Shown one piece after another: positions 3,001-10,157 of a DNA stretch of 41,819 bases. How positions within the stretch are numbered: position 1 is the stretch's first letter; every line of letters begins with the position of its first letter. A program made the translations under genes and the position numbers. This DNA is from Chloroflexota bacterium (GTDB taxonomy: Bacteria; Chloroflexota; Anaerolineae; Anaerolineales; Anaerolineaceae), in the NCBI GenBank assembly GCA_021779955.1, contig JAJXZS010000032.1:1-41819 (forward strand), given 5' to 3'. The notes below the pieces were generated by a model, which searched no databases, was not told the origin of the DNA, and worked only from the letters and a program-made list of their open reading frames with translations.

Positions 3001-5119
3001 TTTCAACAGCCTTGGACAGCACATTTTGCGCTTCTCCGCGCATGCCGGTTTTGAGGAACCGTTCGCCGACGAGGTAGTTTACCTCGGCTGATTCGGGGAA
3101 TAAGCGGGCTAGTTCATCGATCTTCTCATCCGCACCCTCATGATTGACGGATTTCATTGTCTTGACGGTCAGAATCTGGCCGGGCAGATAATCTGGGAAT
3201 TGCGTAATCAACTCGTTCAGCATGGTCAGGGCTTCGGAAGGTGAACCTTGATCGATAAGACGCTTCGCCAGAGCGAAGAGAATTTCTTTCGATTCGGGAA
3301 AGACCGATTTGGCTGCGCGCAATGTATCGGCGGAGCGTTCGGGTTCGCCATTCCTGGCGTAAAGGTCAGCAAGGGCCAGCCAGGGCTCGGCCTCGTCTAC
3401 TTCGGTTTCAATGGCTTTTGCCAGGTACTCAATCGCCTGGGGAATGTCGCCCAGCTTTCTGTATGATTTGCCCAGAACGACCAGGGCTTTACCGTACTTG
3501 GTAGACGTTTCCGGAATGGCAGAAGCTGCCTGGATGGCGGCATGCACATTGCCGACCTTGTTGGCGGTACGGGCCAGGTGGAGCAGGTCGTCCTCCGTGG
3601 CATCCTGGGCGTTTGGCGTAAAAGCCGACCAGGCACGCAGGGCGGCTTCATCATCGCCAAGGGCTTCGAGGCTCAATGCCTTGGCGCGTTTGATCTGGGT
3701 CGAAGCGGGGTCAAGGACTTCGAGATTACGGTAAAGATCGAGTGCCTCGGAATAATCGCCTGCCTGCAAGAACAAGGGTGCGCTCTTTTCGATCACGGCG
3801 AAATTGGAGGGGTTTTCTGCCAGTATCTTGCGGGCGATCACGGTAGCTTCATCATTCAACCCAAAATGAACCAGTGTGTCGAAAAGCCTGGTCAGATTGA
3901 AATTGTGAGCGAAGCGGGGCTGACGTGCTTTGGAAATCGCATCAGGCTGTGCGATCAGTGCAGAGAAAGCGTTGGCAGCAGCTTCTCTTGCCAGGGGCAG
4001 GTTGCCGGCGGCTTCGATGGACTTGGCCTGGACAAAGCCGGCCACCGGAGCTTCGGGCTGCGTAGTTTTGATACCAAGGTCAGCCGGGGCTTTAGGTTCG
4101 AGCGCCATCATCAACTCGGATGCCACATCGCTATTCGCCGGCTCTTCCTCCATGATGCGGGAAGCCAGGGCGTTGGTCTCTTCCTTGCGATCGAGACGCG
4201 AAAGAAGCGCCAGCTTCTGCAGGTTCAATCCGGTTTTAATGGCGCCAAGTGTCTTTTCTGCAGCCTCTACAAACTCGAGGGCGGCCGCGTCCTTGTGGGC
4301 AAGTTGGGCGACAGTGCCCAGGTTCTGATAGCGCGTCACCTGATTCAACGCATCAGCCGGCTTTGACCAAACTTCGCCAGGGCTTGCGGGTGAGACAGGT
4401 GCAACTTTGCTTGATTCGAGCAGAACAGAAGCAGCATCGGCTGTGAATTGTTCGCCTGCCTGGTTTTGCAGCAAGTTCAATAGGACGATCTGGCGCGGCT
4501 CAGATTGTGTCGAAAGTGCGTTTGCGATCTGCCGGACCTTTGCATTTGGTTCAACAGGTTGAGTCAATACGCAGTGAACGAAAATTGTTAAGAATGCCAG
4601 CGGTGCATCCGCTTGGGTGAGAACGTCAAGCAATTCATCCCGGTGTGGGTCGAGGTGCGATGCAATGGCGAGCGGAGTATTCCACCACGCGGCAAGGTCG
4701 GCATCGTTGCGCCCATTGCGGTTGCGCAAGGCATCGGCCAAAACCACTTTCCAGTGTGTCGCGATTTTGCGCTTCTCGATCAATGCCAGCGCCACATCTA
4801 CAGCTTGTGTGAGGAATTCTGCTGGAGCGCCGGCTTGCTTGAATGCCTCGAAATCGGTCATGAGGCGCTCGAGGGTCTGAGTATCGAGCGGGACCTCAGA
4901 AATGGCTGCCATGTTGGGATAAACGGCTGCTATGGCGAAATCACCTGGCGTAAAATGATTCTGGAGATACTCTTTGGCGGCGACCAGGTTCTCCACGTGT
5001 TCAGGAGTCTGCAACCCCGTAATAATCAAAGAATCCTGCCTCAGAGCAGGCAGTACGAGGGGTTTTTGTTCAGAATTCAGCAAATCGCTTAAGAAATCGT
5101 AGAAATTTATGGTGGACAT
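1..5119 (-). CDS. Giant tetratricopeptide-repeat protein (3' end outside window)
   Basis: The reading frame is open from an ATG at 5119 to the left edge, giving at least 1706 codons with no stop seen. A clear AGGAG lies just upstream of the ATG (5120-5128). After roughly 170 residues without obvious repeats, the rest is back-to-back TPR-like helical pairs with the usual small/large residue pattern, for example LAKVYQKRRDFHKALETL near the left edge and LADVYYRSGNLDKAIKTA near 660. I see no signal peptide or membrane segment, so it is probably cytoplasmic and acts as a protein-binding scaffold. It follows the small membrane protein gene by 49 bp and probably shares its transcript, which may start at the sigma-54-type promoter at 5530-5544. 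The full length and C-terminal domain are unknown, and no enzymatic domain is visible in the part present. Confidence 0.88.
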   Translation of the reverse strand, partial: MSTINFYDFLSDLLNSEQKPLVLPALRQDSLIITGLQTPEHVENLVAAKEYLQNHFTPGDFAIAAVYPNMAAISEVPLDTQTLERLMTDFEAFKQAGAPAEFLTQAVDVALALIEKRKIATHWKVVLADALRNRNGRNDADLAAWWNTPLAIASHLDPHRDELLDVLTQADAPLAFLTIFVHCVLTQPVEPNAKVRQIANALSTQSEPRQIVLLNLLQNQAGEQFTADAASVLLESSKVAPVSPASPGEVWSKPADALNQVTRYQNLGTVAQLAHKDAAALEFVEAAEKTLGAIKTGLNLQKLALLSRLDRKEETNALASRIMEEEPANSDVASELMMALEPKAPADLGIKTTQPEAPVAGFVQAKSIEAAGNLPLAREAAANAFSALIAQPDAISKARQPRFAHNFNLTRLFDTLVHFGLNDEATVIARKILAENPSNFAVIEKSAPLFLQAGDYSEALDLYRNLEVLDPASTQIKRAKALSLEALGDDEAALRAWSAFTPNAQDATEDDLLHLARTANKVGNVHAAIQAASAIPETSTKYGKALVVLGKSYRKLGDIPQAIEYLAKAIETEVDEAEPWLALADLYARNGEPERSADTLRAAKSVFPESKEILFALAKRLIDQGSPSEALTMLNELITQFPDYLPGQILTVKTMKSVNHEGADEKIDELARLFPESAEVNYLVGERFLKTGMRGEAQNVLSKAVEIAKPDAEWLVAYADSLAGEDYRSVDSNEVRTADHVDKAKKALEQSARVESDALAAAVSGELLLSEGNATEAFRILSTVESKQVSPDDEWYWRLQAGLARAATILGKFDMALASIQDAISQQPGLAGLHKILADVHKASGNTLAAVEAANQVLVIAPNVVENVLWFVNFLSGLNRPADAEKELQKAIATKPAEIKYRIALAELLTKSGRASELSTTLGTPEALLQTRPAEADLVKAAEIYWSNGDTKSAAILLEKRAQDFSGSIQAKLDYAGILAQTGNAIRSNEILSALVAEPAIALIAAEARYQESDFDAAAILLESSPETSKPEGIAVNSFLPAAWQIMLQQKHPAEYLGARVHFAKANFKKTVEICKKWHSAESDNANASFYLDQAHCAIGADMVPHKIDHLETAPVMVLCAMAQENLDSGNTDRGMGLIERAAENGGDGAWISALRIQAAVARGELIEAQVNEGELASTAMQSAVCVKAEDIVRCSSHVHANIALNHWDAALDLASALKQSNPANLEVAALHLQTLVSAIEAAHAQQCLEIKAHAVSASRLDSIEKEFAEIHSSMETPSSKSIARWLIRGQLALQPSQENLRALALISPKPDDIVAMMSALHALDDDQTAVQVAHKFENHPAVLAELAKCQAATDDNTALLSLQRSLLFAEGQPEIWAARSILEEKLGEKENAIQSMENALSYWPDEAGWHIRAARLWQSAGDPKKAVEHLQNSASLENDNAEIEFQIGSAYASLNQFAESIRMLEQASSKDMNRSDILEALADVYYRSGNLDKAIKTAERASISNPFSVKPILLTGEIELEKGEIAKALEQARIAISKNETSAEAITFLAKVLLKKGDKAQALAALEKAASSENATLDLMLKHAHLVREIKGSSNSKAIFEGLVKRYPQNTELLKLLAESQLDCGEKVAAEETARHSLRLESAQPDLHEFLGKLKIEDGNLDQAVYHFSEEIALDASAVNGYLELAKVYQKRRDFHKALETLQQA

Positions 5120-5168
5120 GAGACTCCTTTACTGATCCGAGCGGGAGAACCCTGGAATGGATGCGGGA

Positions 5169-5492
5169 TTATTTGATCTGCATGACGAGAGCGTAAGCCC
5201 CGCCCATTAATGCAACGCCAAGCAGCACCAGGAATATTCCAACTCCCGCGGCAGTCTTGACCAGTTCGTTCAAGGTTTCGATCAGTGTGCGGGCGTTGCC
5301 GACGAGTCCGGTGATGTCATCGGTGATGCCTTTCTGGGCAAGTTTCGCGGTCTGATTGGCGATGGTTCGAATGTCATTACCCATCATCTTGCTGACCAGG
5401 ATGTAGACGCCTACTCCCAACACAAGCACGCCCACGATCACGATTGCAGAAGCCATACTCAGCAAAAAGTCATTTACGGTCATCGAAAACAT
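5169..5492 (-). CDS. Small two-helix membrane protein of unknown function
   Basis: This is a 107-residue protein with two strongly hydrophobic segments, near residues 14-33 and 82-102, separated by a polar, probably helical stretch of about 45 residues. I do not recognise the family. The ATG at 5492 is chosen because GGAGGG (5497-5502) sits four bases upstream; a TTG at 5504 would place that site inside the gene. The gene lies between the sigma-54-type regulator and the giant TPR gene, 49 bp from the latter. It is the first gene downstream of a sigma-54-like promoter, and its ribosome-binding site lies in one arm of a strong hairpin. It could be a membrane partner or anchor for the TPR protein, but that is inference from position only. 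Confidence 0.8.
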   Translation of the reverse strand: MFSMTVNDFLLSMASAIVIVGVLVLGVGVYILVSKMMGNDIRTIANQTAKLAQKGITDDITGLVGNARTLIETLNELVKTAAGVGIFLVLLGVALMGGAYALVMQIK

Positions 5493-5493
5493 A

Positions 5494-5526
5494 AAACCCT
5501 CCAAAGATTGATCTCTTGGAGGGTTT
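5494..5526 (-). terminator. Hairpin over the ribosome-binding site of the small membrane gene
   Basis: Arms AAACCCTCCAA (5494-5504) and TTGGAGGGTTT (5516-5526) are perfect 11-base complements, with three further inner pairs (AGA/TCT). On the minus strand the hairpin is followed by TTTT, so it resembles a weak intrinsic terminator for the rpoN-kinase-regulator transcript. Its second arm contains the GGAGGG ribosome-binding site of the next gene. Confidence 0.65.
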
Positions 5527-5529
5527 GAT

Positions 5530-5544
5530 GCAAGAATTATGCCA
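5530..5544 (-). promoter_or_regulatory. Sigma-54 (-24/-12) promoter candidate
   Basis: The minus strand reads TGGCATAATTCTTGC, matching the sigma-54 consensus TGGCACG-N4-TTGC with the required GG-N10-GC spacing. The only differences are T for C and A for G at positions 6 and 7. Predicted +1 is near 5518, about 25 bases before the ATG of the small membrane gene. It starts six bases past the stop codon of the sigma-54 activator gene. In a visual scan of the other main intergenic regions I found no comparable match. Confidence 0.72.
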
Positions 5545-5549
5545 AAACT

Positions 5550-6725
5550 TTATGCCATCTGGATGCTCACGTCCCGCGGCAGATCGGGAAGGTCGATGCG
5601 CTCGCCATCACAGAAAATGATGGCTCGTTCGATCGCATTGGACAGTTCGCGAATGTTGCCAGGCCAGTCGTACTGCTGCAGTGCCTGCATCGCCAGTGGC
5701 GTGACCCCGGTGACGTTCATGCCTTTTCGGGCATTCGTTGTGCGGATAAAGAAGCCGACGAGCTCCGGAATATCCTCTTTGCGTTCGCGTAAAGGTGCCA
5801 GGTTTAGATCGACAATGTTGAGACGGTAAAAGAGGTCTTCGCGAAATTGATTTTCCCGAATCATCTTAGGAAGATCGCGATTCGATGCGGCCAGGATCTG
5901 CACATCGACCTTGATCAAGTTCGTCCCGCCGACGCGGCGGAAGGATTGCGATTCGATGGCGCGCAGCAGCTTCGCCTGGATATCCAGGGACATAGAAGAG
6001 ATTTCATCGAGGAAGAGGATGCCGCCGTCTGCCACCTCCATCAACCCGGGTTTGCGCCTCTCTGCGCTTGTGAATGCTCCGGCTTCATACCCGAACAGTT
6101 CTGATTCGAGCATGGTATTCTGGATGGCTGCGCAGTTGATGGCGATGAATGGTTTGTTCGCTCGTGGCCCGTTTGCATGGATGTATTGGGCGAGAATATC
6201 CTTGCCTGTGCCCGTCTCGCCGGTGATCAGCACCGAAACCTGGGCATCGGCGGCCTTGAGCGCATGTGAAATGACCTCCTTCATGCGTGGAGATTCTCCG
6301 ATCACAAAGTCTACTTTCTGCGCTTGGGCTTCGCGGTAATGCTCCAGTTCGCGGCGCATTTTGACCACCTCTGAGGCGCGTTGAAGGGACAGGTCCAATT
6401 GGGCAAAGTCTACAGGCTTGGTCAGGAAATCGTGGGCGCCGTTCTTCATCGCATCCACCGCAGTCTCGATGTCGCCAAAACCGGTGATGACGATGATGGG
6501 CGGCCGGCTGGGCATGTTGGAAGTTTCGTAGAGCAAGTTCGGCCCATACCCATCGGGGAGTTGGATGTCCAGGAGAACGATATCTGCATCCCCTTTGAGG
6601 AGATGTTCGCGGGCATCTCCAAGCGTGCCTACGCCGATCACATCGTACGACTTGGTGGCCAGGAGTTCGCCCAAATTCTGGCGGGCATTCTCTTCGTCAT
6701 CAACAATCAATACTGTAAGACTCAT
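5550..6725 (-). CDS. NtrC-family sigma-54 activator, receiver + AAA+, no DNA-binding domain
   Basis: This 391-residue response regulator activates sigma-54 RNA polymerase by ATP hydrolysis. The receiver domain (about 3-115) has acidic residues D9/D10, phosphoacceptor D53 and K103. The AAA+ domain (about 140-375) has Walker A GETGTGKD (169-176), Walker B LFLDE (237-241), the REDLFYRL stretch with probable arginine fingers (295-302) and GNIREL (356-361). The sigma-54-contacting loop reads GAFTSA (216-221) rather than the usual GAFTGA. The protein ends about 15 residues past the AAA+ domain, so the Fis-type helix-turn-helix of full-length NtrC (about 470 residues) is absent, as in FlgR-type activators. 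The start overlaps the kinase stop by four bases (ATGA). The upstream kinase is the likely phosphodonor and the adjacent rpoN product the likely partner. Confidence 0.93.
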   Translation of the reverse strand: MSLTVLIVDDEENARQNLGELLATKSYDVIGVGTLGDAREHLLKGDADIVLLDIQLPDGYGPNLLYETSNMPSRPPIIVITGFGDIETAVDAMKNGAHDFLTKPVDFAQLDLSLQRASEVVKMRRELEHYREAQAQKVDFVIGESPRMKEVISHALKAADAQVSVLITGETGTGKDILAQYIHANGPRANKPFIAINCAAIQNTMLESELFGYEAGAFTSAERRKPGLMEVADGGILFLDEISSMSLDIQAKLLRAIESQSFRRVGGTNLIKVDVQILAASNRDLPKMIRENQFREDLFYRLNIVDLNLAPLRERKEDIPELVGFFIRTTNARKGMNVTGVTPLAMQALQQYDWPGNIRELSNAIERAIIFCDGERIDLPDLPRDVSIQMA

Positions 6726-8671
6726 GAATTACTCTCCAATGCTGCGGGAATCCTGACGGTAAACACCGTGCCTCCAGGGAATGAATTGACAGTGATGCTT
6801 CCCTTGTGAGCGGTGACGATCTGTTTTGTAATGGCAAGCCCGAGACCGGTGCCTTGCTTTCTCGTGGTAACAAATGGCTCGAAGATGTGCTCGCGCAAAT
6901 CTTCCGGAATCCCCGGCCCGTTGTCAGAAACGGTGATCTCCACTTGAGGGTGACCTGAGATTTCGTGGTTCATCACGGCGCGTATTGCCAAAGTATCGCC
7001 TGAAGCGGTCATGGCGTCAAGCGCGTTGGAGATTAAATTGGTGAACACCTGGTCGAGTGAGCGCGAATCGCCGCGCATCTTTTCGATGGGATCGTCGACA
7101 TGCAGCACAGGCGTAACGTTGACCTTTGCGAACTTGGGACGCCAGCGCTCGATGATCCGCTGCAGGAAGAGAGCAACATCGATATCTTCGATGCGGGGTT
7201 CGATGGGGCGTGAGAACGCGAGGAAGGATTCCATCAAATGGTTCAGGCGGGTGCAATCGTTTTGTACCCGGCCAATGACTTCCTGATTCGGATCGTCCGG
7301 GCTGAGTTTGGCGCCCAGGAGCTGGATGCCCGTGTGGATGCTATTGATCGGGTTGCGCACGTCGTGGGCGAAGGCAGCCGTATAGTCGCCAAGCACCGCG
7401 CGATGCTCGAGTTGCTGAGTCAATGCCTTCGACTGTTCCTGCTCGCTCAAGTCTGTCAATATTACTTCGATGCCTACAACTAGTTCATTTTCCAAAACCG
7501 GGATCACCTGGATCTGCACCGGGAACGATTGCCCATTACGCCTGTTGAGCGAAACCATGCCGATATTGTGCGTGCGATTCCCCTTCTGGGCGTCCTCGAG
7601 AGCAGGCAGGATTCGGTCGGTGCCGATCAGTATATTCTCATATGACTGGCCATTGACTTCCCAGCTTGCGTACCCGAGCATCCATTCGGCAGCAGGATTG
7701 ATCTCATCGATCTTGAGATCGCTGCTAAGGAAAATGACGCCTTCCTGAATGGCTTCGACTGTGGCTGCCCGCAGTCGATTGCCCGTCTGGGCATCTGTGA
7801 CTTCTTTTTGAAGATTGCCGACGAGCATGAAATGCTGGATCATGCCGGCTGCCATGGCGGCAGCCACCTCGAGCAATTCAGGGGAAACCTCGGAGGGCTG
7901 CACATCGATGCCCCCGGCAACCAGCAGCCCAAGCACCCCTTTCCCCTGCTTGAGGGGAGCCGTAATCAGGTAGTTGAAGTTGTTAAGCTTCGAGAAGCGG
8001 TGCACATCGGTAAGCACCCGGCTGGCGGGTTTCCACACATTTGGCTCGGCCAGACGGAAGATGTCGGAAGAAGGCAGCGAATCGGGAAAGATAATGTTCG
8101 ACTCGGAAGCAGCTGTCTTTTGAAGCTGCGGAAAGGCCGGGTCGGCCTGGTAGATAACCACGGCTTCGGTATTGAGCAGTTCGCGGGTGAGCGAGACGAA
8201 TTGGGCTAGGGCATCCGAAAGTCCGGTCAATTCGTACAACTGATTCACCGCCAGGAAGTATTTCATGAACGGATCGGAGAGCAGCGATCCCTGGCTGCCC
8301 AATGCAGGATTGGTGAGTAGACGGATGCGCAGCCACTTCGCGCCCTGGTCAAGATAATCGAATTTGGCAGTCACGCGAACGGCAGGTTGGTCACGCCGGT
8401 TGAGTAGTAGGTTTCGGATCTCTCCGCTATTGACCGCTTTGAGCGCTAATTGGGAAAACAATAAATCGGCGGGTTTTTCCCACATATCGCCGGTGGTAAA
8501 TGAACAGAGTTTGACAAGCCTGCTGTTGATAAAAAGGAGGGTTTCTGTCTCGCAGTCGACCAGCGCTGCCGGTTCTTCATCCAGGTTGATGAGCGTACAG
8601 GTTTCGTTGAAACCGGGGGTCTTGCTTCGCTTGAACAGGTTGGCAGCCAGGTTGACAGGAGAAGGTTTCAT
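6722..8671 (-). CDS. Cytosolic PAS-GAF-PAS sensor histidine kinase, NtrB/AtoS-like
   Basis: This 649-residue kinase has no membrane segment, so it should sense an intracellular signal. An N-terminal PAS-like region (about 28-120) is followed by a GAF-like region (about 140-285), a PAS domain (about 300-410), a HisKA domain and a HATPase domain. The phosphoacceptor is H436 in [16 protein letters not shown]-site boxes are N545/N549 (N box), DNGPGI (583-588) and GTGLGL (607-612). The H-box form and gene order match NtrB/AtoS-type kinases paired with sigma-54 activators. The ATG overlaps the rpoN stop by four bases and its own stop overlaps the regulator start in the same way, so all three should be translationally coupled. 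The signal it detects cannot be read from sequence. Confidence 0.93.
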
Positions 8672-10077
8672 GGATGTTGAGCCACAGCTTTCCTCAAATG
8701 TGCGGGCAAAATGCCCTCGATCGAACGATATTTCGCAACTGTCCGTCGCGCGACTTCAAAACCGTGCTCGGCAAGTAAATCGACCAGATCGGCATCGCTA
8801 TAAGGTTTGGATTCACCTTCGATGATCTCTTTTAGTACGGTTCGCACATTCAGGCTGCGGTCGAAGAACGACGAAAGCGGAACGATCCTGCGGTTGGGCA
8901 TCTGCACAGCCTTGTTTGCCACTGCGCGCGAAATGGTGGATTCATGTACTTCCAGTTCGCGGGAAATCTGCGCGCGGGTGACCGGTCGCAAGTATTTTTC
9001 GCCAAAGAGGATGTAATCGCGCTGCAGCCCCACAACCCTTGAAAGCAGCCGTTCCATGGTGTGATTGCGCTGTTGGAGGCACTTGACGAACAGCGAGGCC
9101 TTTTCGAGATCCGCCTTCAGATCCAGTTTCTTTTCCGCATCTGCCTGGTGAACTGCCTGCTTGAACATCGGGTTGACCTGCAAGGTACCGTTCAACGGCA
9201 TAATGATTTCAACCACCAGCGGACGATGGGGATCGTCATTGAGATAACTGATGATCACGTCCGGCTGGTGATACACCTGCACAGATTCCTGCGCCGGTTG
9301 GCGCATATCCCCCCAGTGAGAACGCCCGGGGAACGGGTTGAGATTTTCAGAAATGAAATGGGCTGCTTCCACGATCAACCGCGTGGGCTCGCCAAAACGA
9401 TGCGCCAGTTCGGGATACTGGTGGCGGCTCAATTCGTCCATGCCCTCTCTGACGATCCGCTCTGCAAGCTGTGGAACTGGACCGGTCTCACCAAGCACTT
9501 CAAGCTGGACCAGCAGCGCTTCCTGGGGATTGGAAGAGCCTACTCCAACGGGATCGGCACGTTGAATCAGGTGTTTGATTTTTTCAACCTCGCCGGGCAT
9601 CACGTGGAGATATTTGGCTACCTCGAACACAGACGTCGTCAGGAAACCGTCTTCATCCAGGTGAGTCAGTAGAAAAGCAGCAATCCCGCGCTGCTCCTTC
9701 GCAAGATCGGGCGCAATCTGGCGCAGGACATAGGTTGGCAGTTCTTCACCTTCGGTAGCGTATGGCTCGTCATCGACGACCTCGTCGACGTAATCCTTCT
9801 TGGGGATGAACTCGTCGCGTGGTGAAAGGAACACCACCGGTTCCTCCGATGCAGGATTGGCGGGGATGCTGCACACCGGGCAGACACCGTGCTCTGGAAT
9901 GAGCCGGTGGCAGGTTGGACAGCGCCTTTCCTCGACAAGTTCGAGCGCCGGATTTGTGGAAATCTCAGATTCGATCTGCTCGCGGAGTTCCTCCGTAGTC
10001 AAACTGAGCAGAGTCATCGTCTGCGCCAGGTGAGCAGTTGTTAGTGGTCGAGTCGTGTGATATTGTGCTTGAAACAT
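8668..10077 (-). CDS. rpoN: RNA polymerase sigma-54 factor with zinc-ribbon-like insert
   Basis: Sigma-54 directs RNA polymerase to -24/-12 promoters and needs an AAA+ activator. The 469-residue protein has region I (about 1-47, ending in the typical NPALE), a core-binding region, a helix-turn-helix (about 366-391, ESTISRAVANK) and the RpoN box ARRTVAKYR (443-451). Between region I and the core-binding domain is a CxxC-x9-CxxC motif (C53, C56, C66, C69), absent from well-known proteobacterial RpoN. The ATG at 10077 is preferred because a longer reading from TTG at 10128 would put the gene's own promoter (10100-10128) inside the coding region. It is the first gene of a coupled rpoN-kinase-activator operon. 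Confidence 0.95.
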   Translation of the reverse strand: MFQAQYHTTRPLTTAHLAQTMTLLSLTTEELREQIESEISTNPALELVEERRCPTCHRLIPEHGVCPVCSIPANPASEEPVVFLSPRDEFIPKKDYVDEVVDDEPYATEGEELPTYVLRQIAPDLAKEQRGIAAFLLTHLDEDGFLTTSVFEVAKYLHVMPGEVEKIKHLIQRADPVGVGSSNPQEALLVQLEVLGETGPVPQLAERIVREGMDELSRHQYPELAHRFGEPTRLIVEAAHFISENLNPFPGRSHWGDMRQPAQESVQVYHQPDVIISYLNDDPHRPLVVEIIMPLNGTLQVNPMFKQAVHQADAEKKLDLKADLEKASLFVKCLQQRNHTMERLLSRVVGLQRDYILFGEKYLRPVTRAQISRELEVHESTISRAVANKAVQMPNRRIVPLSSFFDRSLNVRTVLKEIIEGESKPYSDADLVDLLAEHGFEVARRTVAKYRSIEGILPAHLRKAVAQHP

Positions 10078-10099: not shown

Positions 10100-10128
10100 A
10101 GTATAGCGGATATGCAATAGTGGTGCAA
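10100..10128 (-). promoter_or_regulatory. Sigma-70-type promoter of rpoN
   Basis: On the minus strand TTGCAC (10123-10128) and TATACT (10100-10105) are separated by exactly 17 bases. Transcription would begin near 10093, giving a short leader before the ATG at 10077. This fixes the rpoN start codon. Confidence 0.75.
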
Positions 10129-10157
10129 GTTTTATGCCATGCCAATTTTCCGGCTGA

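Follow-up and report, generated by a model that had tools for sequence, protein, structure and literature searches.

This analysis concerns a stretch of 41,819 nucleotides (here called the window) from a Chloroflexota bacterium of the family Anaerolineaceae (contig JAJXZS010000032.1) and, within it, a hairpin between a sigma-54 promoter and the gene of a small membrane protein. All features in question are on the minus strand, in the order rpoN, histidine kinase gene, NtrC-type regulator gene, sigma-54 promoter, small membrane-protein gene, and TPR protein gene. rpoN, which codes for sigma-54, occupies 8668..10077, with the ATG at 10077 as the chosen start. It is followed by the gene of the histidine kinase (6722..8671), in which the domain search found a PAS domain and a weak GAF match, and by that of the response regulator (5550..6725), the last gene of this operon, whose product has receiver, AAA+, and lid domains. 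The target gene (5169..5492), delimited from the list of open reading frames (ORFs) and a Pfam search, starts with the ATG at 5492-5490 and encodes a membrane protein of 107 amino acids (aa). As an earlier annotation of this DNA (the sequence-only reading) had it, the regulators lie directly upstream of the target: the co-directional NtrC-type gene ends at 5550, five bases before the promoter, which begins at 5544.

The promoter, TGGCATAATTCTTGCA (5529..5544), matches the pattern TGGCAYN5TTGCW exactly, including the spacing between its -24 and -12 elements. A scan of the window gave two exact matches and, with one mismatch allowed, four matches where 4.06 are expected, so that the motif is weak evidence within one window; the organism's own genome holds 15 exact matches, versus 3 for the reversed pattern. 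Transcription from sigma-54 promoters usually starts 12 bases past the C of the -12 element, with start positions varying by some bases. By this rule the start (+1) is predicted at 5518, inside the 5′ arm of the hairpin as the sequence-only reading had placed it, so that eight of the 11 bases of this arm are upstream of +1 and three are retained in the sigma-54 RNA.

The hairpin is a perfect 11-pair inverted repeat (5494-5504 and 5516-5526) that covers the GGAGGG site. Its 5′ arm, AAACCCTCCAA (5516..5526, about -8 to +3), is an anti-Shine-Dalgarno sequence supported by the repeat, the fold, and covarying pairs. An 11-base loop taken from the fold (5505..5515) leads to the 3′ arm, TTGGAGGGTTT (5494..5504), which rests on repeat and fold and holds the ribosome-binding site (RBS), the Shine-Dalgarno (SD) sequence GGAGGG being read at 5497..5502. 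The hairpin had also been said to end in TTTT; this run exists (5496-5493), but three of its four T are inside the 3′ arm.

Folding confirmed a hairpin that hides the SD. RNA spanning 5550-5470, as read-through would produce it, folded at -26.0 kcal/mol (z -3.7), and 0 of 200 shuffles were as good, whereas RNA from 5518 folded at -4.4 kcal/mol and 195 of 200 shuffles were at least as good. The probability of the SD being unpaired was 0.0002 in the read-through RNA versus 0.21 in the RNA from 5518. In an Rfam search restricted to positions 5000-6000 of the window, the best match reached 22.8 bits, where the gathering score is 70, and no known RNA family was found.

We analyzed conservation in 201 genomes of the order, relatives among the Anaerolineae. 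The small membrane-protein gene was found in 163 of them, which is a lower bound: at L241 (G002) the element and the beginning of this gene both occur, but the protein search listed no match in that genome. Named records with the gene include Longilinea, Bellilinea, Leptolinea, Anaerolinea, and Pelolinea, as well as many uncultured Chloroflexi. From the 163 genomes 150 loci were read; after removal of L129 (no tblastn hit) and L023 (no start), 148 orthologous loci were left, 133 of which have the promoter as counted with GGC[AC]N6[TC]TGC, a motif looser than the exact one that in L064 picks a site downstream of a better one. The folded segment ran only from -11 to the start codon, with 100 dinucleotide shuffles each. 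At 101 of the 133 promoter loci no more than 5 of 100 shuffles folded as well, where 7 or 8 such loci are expected by chance (median z -4.2), and the median fold was -15.6 kcal/mol from -11 versus -2.8 for the same RNA from +1.

What is held constant among these loci is the position of the pairing. Across the hairpin loci, loop length varies between 3 and 16 bases, and the start codon lies at a distance of 25 to 49 bases from -12. The SD core was wholly paired in 75 and partly paired in 19 of the 94 regulator-adjacent hairpin loci, and at least one base of the start codon was paired in 30. The stems of L025, L032, and L040 consist mainly of the spacer and the start codon, indicating that the occluded place is conserved and not one DNA word. 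If transcription starts at the motif-predicted +1, the 5′ partner is missing from 775 of the 1241 pairs at 100 loci. Partition-function models including 40 coding bases gave a median unpaired SD of 0.00 in read-through RNA and 0.31 in sigma-54 RNA for 99 regulator-adjacent loci, and of 0.15 and 0.26, respectively, for 33 loci in other contexts.

The sequence-only reading had named conserved and covarying arms in relatives as a test of its proposal; arm exchange, pair counts, and switches on a tree bore it out. In the exchange, made at all 100 loci with a regulator within 200 bases, replacing the first 16 bases by those of other genera changed the median from -16.8 (native) to -9.5 kcal/mol (p = 2e-17), and the native arm was among the best 5% in 56 of the 100 loci. 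Pairs were counted in alignment A3, 76 distinct regulator-adjacent loci chosen for a hairpin and a 36-44-base region, in which the paired percentage is biased upward. Counts on the named structure gave 136 cells changed on both sides versus 80 +/- 8 in shuffled alignments (0/500 as high) and a covariation score of 0.352 versus 0.249 (0/500), with slid registers at 0.189 or less. Switches of pairs between purine/pyrimidine orientations on the small-protein tree numbered at least 5, 10, 7, and 4 at -8, -7, -6, and -5, and at least 26 in total (same alignment, standard pairs only, no shuffled control, weakly resolved tree). The strongest covariation, at -8 to -5, is thus upstream of the predicted sigma-54 +1. 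Conservation of pairing in bases outside the gene's own predicted transcript argues that selection acts on RNA coming from upstream, seemingly one other than the sigma-54 transcript.

The hairpin also follows the orientation of the upstream neighbor. It was found, as judged by fold score, in 95 of the 102 promoter loci with the regulator co-directionally upstream and in 6 of the 31 without (p = 2e-15). With adjacency set at under 200 bases the figures were 94/100 versus 7/33, and by genus majority they were 39/43 versus 4/15 (p = 6e-6). Many of the loci without a regulator have, by our reading, a longest upstream frame that points away from the gene or sits at a distance. Extra named loci (62, of which 61 were readable) added 15 new ones, all with no regulator found upstream; seven have the motif and one, L219, a hairpin. 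One genus, represented by six loci that were read out of 10 gene-bearing genomes, has lost the promoter, and its gene begins 13-18 bases behind the regulator; this gap, which was not folded, is too short for two arms. We regard the covariation as firm evidence and the context as a strong but phylogenetically clustered correlation.

In our view, the hairpin is very probably a translational insulator that is built into the sigma-54 promoter and forms in read-through RNA only. Transcripts of the rpoN-kinase-regulator operon would run straight into the small membrane-protein gene, given the five bases that separate the regulator stop from the promoter in the window. In such RNA the bases just past the -12 element would pair with the SD, and sometimes with the start codon, and the 30S subunit could not bind. 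When sigma-54 polymerase initiates at the promoter of the target itself, the greater part of the 5′ arm would be left uncopied, the hairpin would not form, and the message would be translated. The target would thereby stay silent unless sigma-54 fires. The read-through may itself be driven by sigma-54, since the rpoN operon has a sigma-54-type site of its own. At loci with a T tract adjoining the 3′ arm, this hairpin may, in read-through RNA, terminate transcription too.

This last effect could conversely be the main one, the hairpin being an intrinsic terminator of the rpoN-kinase-regulator operon that overlaps the next promoter and occludes the RBS as a by-product. A T-rich tail, defined as five or more T among the 8 bases that follow the SD core, is enriched beside the regulator, at 39/100 loci versus 1/33 others (p = 2e-5), and 52/100 loci have four or more T among the 6 bases behind the helix. 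In addition, terminator-like hairpins are seen in the gap of another family (L142 and L134), and L219 has a T-tailed hairpin right behind its promoter. However, the T tract is missing in 48/100 to 61/100 loci, including, by eye, most of the window's own genus, and pairing involves the whole SD core or part of it in 94/94 regulator-adjacent hairpins, 30 of which touch the start codon. The window copy, with an 11-base loop and a tail of 5 T in these 8 bases by hand count, was not called by a terminator scan of 5300-5800, which returned 0 sites. We consider this explanation unlikely; as a general mechanism it was rejected, and it stays a rival for a subset of loci. Of the earlier proposal that read-through RNA would fold, terminate, or block translation, the folding thus held up, whereas termination is not general.

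Two of these cases merit description in their own right. In L142 and L134, which belong to one other family, a separate hairpin that looks like a terminator by eye lies between the regulator and the small gene and replaces the RBS hairpin. In L219 a sigma-54-type promoter is followed at once by a strong hairpin with a T run, most of whose 5′ arm is upstream of +1; L205 resembles it, with a motif one base off. The hairpin of L219 and L205 is perhaps a terminator formed by read-through RNA only.

Three further explanations were weighed. A 3′-end stabilizer or processing site of the regulator operon mRNA is improbable: it would suit the presence of a stable stem a short way past the regulator's stop codon and the association with an upstream regulator, but it does not account for the location of one arm at the RBS or start codon and of its partner directly against -12, and hairpins also occur at other sigma-54 targets (L242, L243, and L331), there behind different co-directional genes. 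Slightly less credible still is a thermometer or trans-acting switch within the sigma-54 transcript itself, which would require transcription to begin before the arm; start positions at sigma-54 promoters do vary somewhat, but covariation is strongest at -8 to -5, and the median fold of RNA beginning at the predicted +1 is -2.8. Most improbable is a DNA palindrome, either a repressor operator or an element used by the sigma-54 polymerase at the start site: the phase of the 5′ arm to the -12 box is nearly fixed, but an operator should keep word and phase, whereas the hairpin keeps place, with arms that have no fixed word and switch through both-sided changes, a -12-to-start distance of 25 to 49 and loops of 3 to 16 bases that do not hold helical phase, and no hairpin at 25 of the 31 promoters without an upstream regulator.

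The hairpin was also sought at other sigma-54 promoters. In the organism's own genome, no significant hairpin was found at the rpoN site (z 0.9) or at the candidate targets L153 (0.0), L159 (-0.5), and L161 (-1.2). The L159 candidate (C25), with promoter TGGCACGCATCTTGCA, is a lipoprotein that by reading resembles an M23-type peptidase. A covariance model of promoter plus hairpin, run on 61 genomes of which several had supplied training rows, gave, by our count, one site with E < 1e-6 in each of 33, located at the small gene. It gave no second strong site in the own genome, where the best other E was 0.0027. Among the weaker model sites that were inspected, L242 (6/200 shuffles as good) and L243 (1/200) are located in front of genes other than the small one, each with a long co-directional frame on its upstream side; L245, whose upstream frame is divergent, shows no hairpin. 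At L242 (G027) the gene resembles glycoside hydrolase 25 by reading, and the co-directional upstream frame is membrane-protein-like.

Both L243 and L245 are members of a second family of sigma-54 targets, which the own genome has as well (L153/L249, C9). Its proteins (L153/L249, L243, L277) have about 460 aa and a GFHYF/GMHYF-like motif near the start. The gene was found in 128/151 genomes; 91 loci were read, and 70 had a promoter in range. Assigned by script, the upstream neighbor was co-directional at six loci, three with a hairpin, divergent at 52, two with a hairpin, and ambiguous at 12, two with a hairpin (p = 0.006). After nine loci had been reassigned by reading of the upstream ORFs, the proportions were 6/11 versus 1/55 (p = 3e-5), with four loci unassigned, all without a hairpin. 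Omission of L243, which the hairpin model itself had found, left 5/10 versus 1/55 (p = 2e-4).

A broader rule can be formulated, according to which sigma-54 targets behind co-directional genes in this bacterial order would repeatedly gain a self-erasing insulator, one that would arise anew behind unrelated neighbors and apply in general to promoters with short leaders. The unrelated neighbors in question would be regulator, RecO-like, and membrane-protein genes (names by reading). We put this rule forward tentatively, as somewhat more apt to fail than to hold.

Several results weigh against the insulator or its specificity. SD accessibility separates the two RNAs less sharply than fold energy does, passing from <0.2 to >0.5 in only 12/99 loci, and in the other contexts the read-through SD is also closed (median 0.15, <0.2 in 19/33). 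Two of five covariation measures, namely pairs with both-sided change and further pair types, were not above shuffles. RNAalifold on the plain MAFFT alignment of A3 predicted no hairpin, which we put down to slipping registers. The enrichment of T tracts leaves room for termination as the main effect at part of the loci. In the context counts, 7/102 regulator-adjacent promoter loci fall below the hairpin threshold and 6/31 others above it, the start codon is uncertain in L289 and L290, and a fold score is not demonstrated RBS occlusion. On supported branches, the tree-corrected independent pairs came to 3 at the small gene and 1 at the second target, and were not significant; the differing hairpin matched the context in all but 1/200 random pairings each, and these tests are too few for significance and underpowered. 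Among the second-target loci, 5/11 co-directional ones have no hairpin. Good folds were also obtained at three more own-genome sites (L160, z -6.8; L157, z -3.0; L152, z -2.0); L160 and L157 are inside long ORFs, and no likely gene start was seen just downstream of any of the three. At L160 (C30), the sigma-54-like motif is followed by a very strong inverted repeat.

The genome has one rpoN match. Its matches to the sigma-54-activator family are the window regulator, the strongest at 230 bits, and two partial ones at 33 and 28 bits in frames of 845 and 839 aa, which we take to be other AAA+ proteins. The domain search found no helix-turn-helix (HTH) domain in the NtrC-type regulator. FlgR and CtcC likewise are described, in the part of the source used here, as sigma-54 activators without a DNA-binding domain (PMC3162934); this likeness concerns a regulator in which no HTH domain was found and not the hairpin. 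The motif scan placed the second sigma-54 motif, which has no hairpin, upstream of rpoN at 10124..10139. In this region (10139-10077, and L229-L239) the TTGCA of the site overlaps a sigma-70-like -35 element, and TATACT or a close variant follows about 17 bases on; inspection by eye showed this arrangement in the window and at 11 of the 12 loci fetched, which had been picked from promoter-model hits. Sigma-54 may repress or boost its own rpoN operon.

The 107-aa protein matched no Pfam family at E 0.1, and 22 relatives gave scattered weak Pfam matches, the best to DUF3899 (4e-5), with two members having DUF3899. Directly downstream of the small gene, at 5119-2, lies the gene of a very long TPR protein (at least 1706 aa), which runs off the window and is probably co-expressed with it.

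The kind of hairpin described here is already known. In the transposase genes of IS10 and IS50, transcripts that enter from outside have their RBS hidden by an inverted repeat, and the element's own promoter starts inside the repeat; there, in contrast, the device belongs to a mobile element and guards against activation by insertion. In phage T4, a hairpin in early transcripts of genes e, soc, 49, and I-TevI hides the translation start, and late transcripts, which begin inside it, are translated well, with a 100-fold effect on lysozyme for gene e, according to the part of the source available to us (PMC3014915). As here, RNA from gene e's own promoter starts within the structure and lacks its 5′ portion; unlike here, the setting is a phage with late promoters and temporal control of lysis, and not a chromosomal sigma-54 promoter beside its own regulator operon. 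For Bacillus subtilis sigG (spoIIIG), located behind spoIIGA-sigE, a read-through hairpin that does not form in own-promoter RNA was proposed (PMC5942855). That case differs in its sigma-F/sigma-G promoter and its 20+ pairs, and the available part of the report presents the hairpin as a proposal only, with no covariation or neighbor-orientation test (PMC5942855). We found no sigma-54 case of an RBS hairpin specific to read-through RNA in a search of freely accessible literature on similar mechanisms, and the words hairpin and read-through are absent from PMC12316311. The use of the device at sigma-54 promoters, the depth of its conservation, and its recurrence thus look new.

The orientation of the neighboring gene provides a natural experiment, which allows a comparative test of a mechanism otherwise described gene by gene. 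In these bacteria, a tightly controlled promoter could be leak-proof even though its regulators are transcribed straight into it. Our data outline a very small sigma-54 circuit, with one sigma factor, one clear activator, and apparently few targets. They also suggest that short sigma-54 leaders with an anti-SD at about -8 to +3 predict insulated targets. If the broader rule is true, a start-site region complementary to the RBS would silence foreign transcripts only, a signature that could be searched for in all bacteria.
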